DNA of 64,000 bases from a virus: positions 1 through 64,000 of IMG/VR virus record IMGVR_UViG_3300010389_000010; one strand, given 5' to 3'. This document shows, one piece after another, positions 32,167 through 34,799 of this stretch; within the stretch, counting starts at the first letter, position 1; every line of letters begins with the position of its first letter. The position numbers and the translations under genes are program-made. A model generated the notes under the pieces. That model worked only from the letters and a program-made list of their open reading frames with translations. It did not search any database and was not told where the DNA came from.

Positions 32167-32750
32167 CTTGTATCGTGGGAATTAGAACGGAAACCGGTGT
32201 GATGCTTGGGGCTGACAGTCTTTCAGGCAGCTATCATGGCGACAAGCAACTTGTTCACACGGCAAAACTCGTCACCAAGAAAACAAGAACGGTTCATGGC
32301 GTCAGTCATGAAGTTCTTATGGGCTTTACCACCAGCTGGAGAATGGGAAACATCCTTCAGTTCATGGATGATCTGCCACCACTTGATGGTGACGTGGAAA
32401 AATGGTTGGTCAAGGAGTTCGTACCGCTCATCAGAACAACATTCAAGGATGAGGGCTACCTGACGATAAACAACGGCGTTGAGTCCGGTGGAAACTTCCT
32501 CATCGGCGTGAACGGTGTACTGGCTGAGATCCAGGGCGATATGTCGGTACTCATTCCGCGTGACCGGTACAGTTCTGTTGGGGCTGGAACTTACATTGCG
32601 ATCGGCGCCATGCATACGGCCACTGCTCTGAAGCAAGGTGACAAAGAGATCCTGATGGCAGGACTGTCGGCCGCAGAGGCCTACAATCCACTTGTTTCCG
32701 GACCATTTTACTTCATCAAATCGGACTCTGCAAAAGGATCAGGGAAATGA
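32163..32750 (+). CDS. Proteasome-like Ntn hydrolase, 195 aa
   Basis: The start MTCIVGIRTETGVMLGADS is the N-terminal-nucleophile pattern of proteasome beta/HslV-like proteins: after Met removal a Thr or Cys is exposed, followed by the GADS strand. FTTSWRMGNILQF and GGNFLIGVNG continue it. Similar proteins occur in various phages, usually without an ATPase beside them. It would be a self-processing peptidase or amidohydrolase; the substrate is unknown. Confidence 0.75.
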   Translation: MTCIVGIRTETGVMLGADSLSGSYHGDKQLVHTAKLVTKKTRTVHGVSHEVLMGFTTSWRMGNILQFMDDLPPLDGDVEKWLVKEFVPLIRTTFKDEGYLTINNGVESGGNFLIGVNGVLAEIQGDMSVLIPRDRYSSVGAGTYIAIGAMHTATALKQGDKEILMAGLSAAEAYNPLVSGPFYFIKSDSAKGSGK

Positions 32751-33073
32751 CCGACCTTGACAAATTAGCCAGTGAGTATGTTGATCAGGCCACCATCCTG
32801 AGTCGCATGCCCTGGCTGACTGCCAAGCGCATGTCGGCGTTGCGTAGTTCTGGTCTTCGTTTCATTCGCGGAAAGAAGGATACCTTCGTCTACCGGCTCA
32901 GCGATGTTCACGCTGCGTTGGAGGATGAGCTGTGTTCAGAGAAGACAACAGATTGTGGGAATACCTTGGGAGATGGATCGGCCGAGTCGATGGAACAGAA
33001 CGGCTCTATGAGTTCTGGTATGAGCCCGGAAGAAGAATTACTCGCCGCCGAACACTTGGAACAACAGATCTAG
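32747..33073 (+). CDS. AlpA/excisionase-like HTH protein, 108 aa
   Basis: The first 62 residues (ATILSRMPWLTAKRMSALRSSGL then KKDTFVYRLSDV) resemble MerR/AlpA-type excisionases. The last 46 residues are read out of frame over the start of the integrase gene, an overlap of 142 bases. Directly before the integrase, this is the expected place of a recombination directionality factor. A frameshift joining the two is possible. Confidence 0.6.
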   Translation: MTDLDKLASEYVDQATILSRMPWLTAKRMSALRSSGLRFIRGKKDTFVYRLSDVHAALEDELCSEKTTDCGNTLGDGSAESMEQNGSMSSGMSPEEELLAAEHLEQQI

Positions 33074-34056
33074 CGGAAGCCAAACGCCGCTTGGTCGAAC
33101 GAGCGACGAAGAAACCAACACAAGCAGGAACACCGGACTTTGTGACAATGGTAGCAGTACAGGTATCATATTTGGAGAACCATCTGGCCGGCCGCCCGGC
33201 AGAGAAGGACGCGCGACGTGCGTTTCGCAATGTCAATGCGTTCATGAAGGCGAGATCTCCACGCAATGCAGCCTATCGAGTATCCGAGTTCGATCTGATT
33301 GCGCAACGGGAATTCATACGGCAGCAAAACCGATCACCAAAGACAGTCTCAACAGAGCTGATCTATATTTCATCCGCCATCAAGTGGGCCGCCCAGGACC
33401 AGATCGTTGATGATGGTGCAGGTGAGCGGCAGATCCGCATACTCACTCACCCTATCACTGTGACCTGTGGCCCGGTTGACGTGGCAAAGATCATGGATGC
33501 TCCGGACCCGAAGCGGAGAGAATGGATCCCGGAACCATCGCAACTGTTCTCATTCATCCAGTCCATACGGAAGCACGAGATGGCCTTCCGAATGACCGTG
33601 ATACTGCTCAATACATGGTGCAGGAGACAGGTGGCTTTCGATTTCCACGATGGCATGGTCAACCGACAGCTTGGCGTGATCGATTTGAACCCTGAAGGAC
33701 GCCGGCAGACCAAAAAGCGCCGACCGATTATAAGGCTCACCAGGAACCTTTCCGGATACATGGACCAATGGGGTGGAGGGACACCTGTTCGCTCACACAC
33801 GGCTCAGCATTCAGAGATTACAGAGGCATTTCGCGATACCGCTCGATCTTTGCAACTGGATCTCCTGACACCGCATGTTTTGCGACACTATTGCGCGACA
33901 CGCGCCAGATCATTTGGAGCCCCGGCTGACGAGATCTCCGAGTGGCTTGGGCACCGCAGGCAAGGAAACACCGGGATATACCTGCACATGGATCCTGACT
34001 GGCTGGTGAAGACCAGGAATGCGACGGATGAAATAGTAAATGAAGTTGGACTTTGA
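32932..34056 (+). CDS. int: Tyrosine integrase, 374 aa
   Basis: The C-terminal catalytic domain shows TPHVLRHYCATRARSF (His-x-x-Arg box), EISEWLGHRR and the nucleophile in GIYLHMDP. The first catalytic Arg is probably in WCRRQVAFDF. GTG 32932 lies seven bases after GGAGG. About 0.6 kb downstream lies attP (34671-34728) with arm-type repeats, so this enzyme should integrate the phage into a host tRNA-Pro gene. Confidence 0.88.
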   Translation: MFREDNRLWEYLGRWIGRVDGTERLYEFWYEPGRRITRRRTLGTTDLAEAKRRLVERATKKPTQAGTPDFVTMVAVQVSYLENHLAGRPAEKDARRAFRNVNAFMKARSPRNAAYRVSEFDLIAQREFIRQQNRSPKTVSTELIYISSAIKWAAQDQIVDDGAGERQIRILTHPITVTCGPVDVAKIMDAPDPKRREWIPEPSQLFSFIQSIRKHEMAFRMTVILLNTWCRRQVAFDFHDGMVNRQLGVIDLNPEGRRQTKKRRPIIRLTRNLSGYMDQWGGGTPVRSHTAQHSEITEAFRDTARSLQLDLLTPHVLRHYCATRARSFGAPADEISEWLGHRRQGNTGIYLHMDPDWLVKTRNATDEIVNEVGL

Positions 34057-34067
34057 AAGGAAATAAG

Positions 34068-34511
34068 ATGCCAATTAGAACAGCTACCTTCAATTTTAAG
34101 GACAACAATTTTGTTGTTGTAAAATTCGACGATCAGACATGGTGGCGCTTGCGAAATGTCGGAGAGGCCTACACCGAAAGCGGATACTTTGCTGGAGTGT
34201 CAGATGAGCAACTCAAAAAAATAACTGGCATCGAAGATGTTAAGTCACTCACCAAGAACCAGAGTGAATTACACTTATCCAAAACGCCTGGCAAAAAAGA
34301 TAAGTACATTTCTGAAATCGCTCTATGCCAAGTCTTGTTGAAGATATTCAGGAACGGGATGCCTGATCTTTCAGACCTTATAAAAAATGCAGAATTGGCT
34401 CTCGAATCGGACGAAGCCTCAGAGATAGACCCCACTCATAACATATTGCAAAGAATAGAGGCTCTCGAACGAGAGGTCTGGAAGACGCCGCAGGAAATAA
34501 ACAACGGATGA
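34068..34511 (+). CDS. Hypothetical protein, 147 aa, possible moron
   Basis: AT-richer than its neighbours. The first 70 residues (VVVKFDDQTWWRLRNVGEAY then SDEQLKKITGIED) vaguely recall the start of phage antirepressor (BRO-type) domains, but the match is weak. It lies between the integrase and attP, a favoured place for genes expressed in the lysogen. Good start site AAAGGAAA. Confidence 0.5.
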   Translation: MPIRTATFNFKDNNFVVVKFDDQTWWRLRNVGEAYTESGYFAGVSDEQLKKITGIEDVKSLTKNQSELHLSKTPGKKDKYISEIALCQVLLKIFRNGMPDLSDLIKNAELALESDEASEIDPTHNILQRIEALEREVWKTPQEINNG

Positions 34512-34546: not shown

Positions 34547-34579
34547 GCGACCAAGAACTTGGTCGCAAATTGGTCGCAG
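34547..34579 (+). repeat. Left arm-type integrase sites
   Basis: GCGACCAAG and CTTGGTCGC (34547-34555 and 34558-34566) form a perfect palindrome, and a third copy TTGGTCGCAG lies at 34570-34579. The same element recurs on the other side of the core at 34777-34799. Confidence 0.65.
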
Positions 34580-34670
34580 TTTATCCTTTGTACGCAGTTG
34601 TTCTCATTCATTCTCAGGAGAGAAACCTTGAAATCATTCAATAAATCTATTCCGCAAGCCATGCCGACAC

Positions 34671-34728
34671 GTAGCGCACTCGCCTGGGGGGCGAGGGGTC
34701 GCAGGTTCAAATCCTGCCGTTCCGACCA
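34671..34728 (+). other. attP core: 3' part of tRNA-Pro(GGG)
   Basis: The sequence from GTAGCGCA to the final CCGACCA is the 3' three-quarters of a tRNA: part of the D arm, a perfect anticodon arm (CTCGC, loop CTGGGGG with anticodon GGG, GCGAG), the T arm (GCAGG-TTCAAAT-CCTGC) and the acceptor strand with CCA. The 5' acceptor strand is missing, so it is not a working tRNA. Integration here would restore the host's tRNA-Pro(GGG) gene. Confidence 0.85.
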
Positions 34729-34776
34729 TCTTTTCAAACACTTATCCAATTACGGGATTATCCCATATTTGCCGAA

Positions 34777-34799
34777 CTTGGTCGCACCTTGGTCGCAGG
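34777..34799 (+). repeat. Right arm-type integrase sites
   Basis: Two direct copies of the element, CTTGGTCGCA (34777-34786) and CTTGGTCGCA (34788-34797), match the left-arm sites at 34547-34579. Confidence 0.65.

Follow-up and report, generated by a model that had tools for sequence, protein, structure and literature searches.

A putative attP with a tRNA-Pro(GGG) core in an uncultivated temperate phage, and a paired arm motif that recurs near other integrases

Why would a virus genome carry the 3′ end of a tRNA gene, framed by short repeats and a little downstream from an integrase gene? We considered this question for the 64-kb window (the whole stretch of DNA analyzed here) of a 67,165-bp virus record from IMG/VR. 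Positions 34547-34798 are very probably the attP through which a temperate phage, using its lambda-type tyrosine integrase (32932-34056), would insert its genome into a host tRNA-Pro(GGG) gene. The attP itself is ordinary and well founded. What is unexpected is that one arm motif is common to very different integrases.

The core (34671-34728, plus strand) extends from the 3′ half of the D arm to CCA and reads GTAGCGCACTCGC-CTGGGGG-GCGAG-GGGTC-GCAGG-TTCAAAT-CCTGC-CGTTCCGA-CCA. Its anticodon stem and its T stem are both fully paired (5/5 each), the anticodon is GGG, and annotated phage tRNA-Pro genes match the window from 34670-34672 onward in BLAST alignments. Together with an Rfam match (RF00005 at 34665-34725, 37.5 bits, above the gathering score), these results bear out the original prediction of a 58-base 3′ part of tRNA-Pro(GGG) with a perfect anticodon and T arm. 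That prediction also named a complete tRNA, recovered by covariance search, as a finding that would count against it. Such a search does return a match above threshold, but the match covers the full model only by skipping the D loop. A D arm is missing, and pairing of the 5′ acceptor (5/7) is at chance level only, being reached by 8.5% of random 7-mers and by 20% of those ending in G. In addition, ARAGORN detected no tRNA gene around the core, and folding of the core strand as RNA was no better than that of shuffled sequences (z -0.24). Thus, measured against a complete tRNA (four arms, with a paired acceptor stem and a D arm), the core is a tRNA-Pro(GGG) 3′ piece and not a tRNA gene. A reading as a D-armless tRNA was dropped, given the shuffle-level folding and chance-level acceptor pairing. 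The core itself holds GGTCGCAGG at 34697-34707, near the arm motif described below; this is probably a coincidence, because it is missing from other tRNA cores flanked by the same arms.

Arm-type repeats lie on both sides of the core, as in a lambda-type attP. The left (P-side) pair, CTTGGTCGCAAATTGGTCGCAG (34558-34579, plus strand), and the right (P′-side) pair, CTTGGTCGCACCTTGGTCGCAG (34777-34798, plus strand), both have an 11-bp period, and the right pair starts ∼50 bp after the CCA. An inverted copy, CTTGGTCGC (34547-34555, minus strand), and the copy after it together make up a 20-bp palindrome. Three repeats on the left and two on the right had been described. Four exact copies of CTTGGTCGC (34547-34555 on the minus strand, 34558-34566, 34777-34785, and 34788-34796) and the left palindrome are indeed present, and CTTGGTCGC occurs nowhere else in the 67-kb record, but the third left copy (34569-34577, ATTGGTCGC) differs from it at the first base. 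The shorter TTGGTCGCA is exact there, and all four exact copies of TTGGTCGCA in the window fall within 34559-34797. Viewed more broadly, each flank carries a 25-nt block (34555-34579 and 34774-34798; 92% identical, 219 bp apart) that holds TTGGTCGCA twice, 11 bp apart, with one inverted copy added on the left. Inverted third copies also occur in three other loci (L041, L043, and L048) and in phage P4.

The integrase gene (32932-34056, plus strand; PF00589, PHROG 1 integrase) has an intact catalytic set, with R231, R318, and Y350 invariant across 24 aligned integrases; in the same alignment, G43 and A50 of the N-terminal domain are nearly invariant. In the structural model (mean pLDDT 79.8), three strands and a helix at residues 14-59 make up a beta-beta-beta-alpha N-terminal domain, the predicted arm-binding fold, which is followed by a helical core-binding domain and then the catalytic domain. 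Pfam, the alignment, and the predicted model thus agree on the arm-binding, core-binding, and catalytic domains of a lambda-type integrase. The top structural matches are Xer, Tn1549, and lambda integrases, with modest to low TM-scores, and PF13356 (Arm-DNA-bind_3) gave no match up to E 0.1. We found no close relatives in viral contigs and one relative, disrupted, among 385 genomes; the nearest relatives found (27-29% identity) lack this arm motif. Overlapping the start of the gene is a small ORF (32747-33073, plus strand), a candidate excisionase by position and look only, with no Pfam or PHROG match. Just upstream, the ORF at 32148-32750 matches PHROG 1040 (HslV-family peptidase). The repeats had been described as lying beside the integrase. 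This is right in sense: the gene ends about 490-500 bp before the left arm, and a 152-codon ORF (34053-34511, plus strand) with a weak anti-repressor PHROG match (E 0.009) lies between.

The same layout, computed in the same orientation as in the window (pair, tRNA 3′ end, pair), recurs in L066, L106, L133, L134, and L139, which are loci of other viral contigs with different tRNA 3′ ends next to integrases. An integrated form at tRNA-Pro(GGG) is visible in contig G759:C42, from a genome of the class of Paucibacter (G411; Gammaproteobacteria in GTDB). Here a pair comes after an intact tRNA-Pro(GGG) gene, and at a distance of 22.5 kb a second pair and an integrase accompany a tRNA-Pro piece that starts CTGGGGG; from CTGGGGG through CCA, the two tRNA-Pro copies are identical. 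Both junctions can therefore be seen, with one pair each. The island (6227-28760; L168/L170) encodes the integrase, a 2035-aa ORF, and large ORFs resembling an efflux system, and one 11-bp arm unit has been lost at its outer junction. Because the identity in this tRNA-Pro island and the repeat of a Bacteroidales integrative and conjugative element (ICE; see below) both start at these bases, strand exchange in the window likely occurs from 34684 onward, with the anticodon loop CTGGGGG (34684-34690, plus strand) as the presumed 5′ edge of the exchange region.

Spacing on the right side is also regular. The distances from CCA to the right pair cluster at 38, 48-51, 59-61, 70-71, and 79 bp (51 in the window), a period of 10.65, or about one helical turn; none of 2000 random sets was as regular, in a set in which some loci share a tRNA and so are not independent. 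Left-side distances showed no significant helical periodicity.

The motif also occurs outside this phage. A search for TTGGTCGCANNTTGGTCGCA gave 16 viral stretches, and one for the shorter pair TGGTCGCANNNTGGTCGCA, with 11-bp spacing, gave 100 IMG/VR loci. Enrichment by raw count (100 loci versus 19 for the reversed pattern) was rejected, as spacings of 12 and 10 bp give 97 and 54; therefore we relied solely on the link to integrases and tRNA ends. By this measure, TGGTCGCA-N3-TGGTCGCA lies near a tyrosine integrase or a tRNA 3′ end in 40/100 loci (some of which are close relatives), against 2/54 and 5/95 for the 10- and 12-bp controls and 1/19 for the reversed one. Taken separately, an integrase is found within 1.5 kb of the pair in 35/100 loci versus 1/54 (10 bp) and 4/95 (12 bp), with an integrase profile that was trained on the 11-bp loci. 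For a tRNA 3′ end within 300 bp, a measure not so trained, the numbers are 21/100 versus 1/54 and 2/95. Among 369 genomes of another class the pair was no commoner than its reversed control (2 versus 3 genomes). Searching the literature outside subscription journals by sequence turned up no paper that names the motif.

The integrases near the motif form about a dozen groups at a 50% identity cut and share 13-22% identity with that of the window; the PF13356 domain is present in those of L089, L043, L088, L126, and L136, and other integrases lack it. We put at about even the chances that TGGTCGCA-N3-TGGTCGCA is one arm-site “address” common to these groups, which insert into different tRNA genes. 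If so, arm specificity would be conserved, or repeatedly reacquired, while core specificity diverges, and such elements might cross-react in excision or integration. In one locus (L057:2528-2548), where the integrase is 27% identical to that of the window, TTGCGTTACA occurs twice with an 11-bp period at the integrase 3′ end, ∼60 bp from a tRNA-Met 3′ end, so that the geometry is kept with a different arm sequence. Because spacing can hold while sequence changes, the sharing of TGGTCGCA among far more distant integrases deserves attention.

Some other loci are arranged differently. In L044, L051, L053, L054, L111, and L127, the 3′ end of the integrase gene contains the arm pair, which means that the presumed binding sites of the integrase code for its own C terminus (L044: ..CDQTATKH). 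Arrays of three or four 11-bp units with TTGGTCGCA, joined head to tail, occur in L046 (8246), L056 (822), L055 (3564), L047 (884), and L049 (12001), unrelated viral contigs that mostly have no integrase nearby. Also, in L064 (genome G093), an intact tRNA-Arg(CCG) is followed after 49 bp by a TGGTCGCA pair that points the other way; no integrase turned up in the 7 kb read there, and the locus is likely a remnant junction.

We infer that the N-terminal domain of the integrase grips the paired TGGTCGCA sites on both sides of the core. As adjacent sites are one helical turn apart, two protomers would sit side by side. The DNA would then fold, and strand exchange by the core-binding and catalytic domains would take place within the tRNA piece, with the anticodon loop at 34684 as its most likely starting point; the phage-borne tRNA 3′ end would afterward complete the host gene.

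Other explanations must be weighed against this one. The locus might encode a tRNA-like gene, or a decayed tRNA that lost its D arm between repeats (GTAGCGCA), with the TGGTCGC repeats serving as operators of the methyltransferase gene. The full-model RF00005 match fits this idea, as does the position of the right pair, which stops ∼10 bp short of the methyltransferase start codon (ATG, 34809). However, the ARAGORN, acceptor, and folding results given above oppose it, no sigma-70-type promoter-like site was found, and the same repeats flank other tRNA ends beside different genes, so we judge it quite improbable. Slightly less probable again is binding of the paired repeats by an excisionase (recombination directionality factor, RDF) in place of the integrase. 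A candidate gene does lie upstream of the integrase, and RDF sites, too, are direct repeats spaced by about one helical turn, as has been described for 186 Apl (PMC7498355). Yet the arrangement here, with identical pairs flanking the core and one more copy inverted, corresponds to the integrase-type arm repeats annotated in P4, and arm sites made of two direct repeats per side have been described for P2-like integrases (PMC3931495). Chance tRNA similarity combined with chance repeats is scarcely credible: four exact 9-mers all fall within 240 bp of 64 kb, the 58-base tRNA piece has intact stems and matches tRNA-Pro genes, and the layout recurs elsewhere. The attP reading is instead supported by that recurrence, the integrated form at tRNA-Pro(GGG), the anatomy of P4, and the modeled arm-binding fold.

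In a lambda-type system the core should equal the host attB, and a search of bacterial genomes for tRNA-Pro(GGG) genes matching 34671-34728 had been proposed. It came back empty: the exact 58-base core is absent from 84,980 species genomes and from viral contigs (as is a 36-base core from the latter), and the anticodon/T-arm part, with up to one mismatch, occurs in 0/385 sampled genomes of the class to which G020, a Hyphomonadaceae genome, belongs. A degenerate 55-mer matched 33 genomes, none with the anticodon stem of the phage, and the nearest tRNA-Pro genes (Hyphomonadaceae, Kaistia, rhizobia, and some Burkholderiales) differ at four paired anticodon-stem positions, as expected if the true host, with a CTCGC/GCGAG stem, is unsampled. 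The closest similarity of the portal protein and methyltransferase is to Rhodobacter phage proteins (43%-45%), and this, with the tRNA matches, suggests an alphaproteobacterial host. Our searches turned up no integrated copy of this phage, which counts against the attP reading, as do the missing genome match, the anticodon-stem differences, and the lack of the motif in the nearest relatives of the integrase. An intact attP within the record would fit a free phage genome and not a prophage cut from a host contig.

For a temperate phage that has not been cultivated, the analysis pins down the integration module and predicts the host gene. It also provides a short signature to search for, two TGGTCGCA spaced 11 bp apart close to the CCA end of a tRNA, by which attP, attL, and attR sites of many tRNA-inserting elements can be recognized. 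Sharing of arm sites between unrelated integrases becomes a directly testable question, and this generalization is the part worth following.

Among known systems, the attP of P4 (NC_001609), whose integrase has an arm-type DNA-binding domain, is likewise annotated with one pair of arm repeats to either side of a tRNA 3′-end core and with one inverted copy. Its repeat, TTGGGGGCA, matches TTGGTCGCA at 7/9 positions in the same orientation relative to the tRNA, but the period is 12 bp rather than 11, the CCA-side pair is ∼112 bp away rather than ∼50, the tRNA is another one, and the P4-type PF13356 domain has no match in the window integrase. In HP1 (Peduoviridae), by our own reading of the sequence, a tRNA-like core has CGCCA repeats on either side at 11-bp spacing, with a different arm sequence and tRNA. 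ICEMlSym(R7A) of Mesorhizobium has five arm-type sites in a 283-bp attP beside intS (PMC11963761), although the motif is TGKTGGTATC and the element is conjugative, not a phage. Finally, the Bacteroidales GA2 ICE (IntGA2ch) is a conjugative element from another phylum, yet it too inserts at tRNA-Pro (PMC8102008), flanked by CTGGGGGGCGTGTGGTCGC, a repeat that starts CTGGGGGGCG, the same bases as at the island junction.
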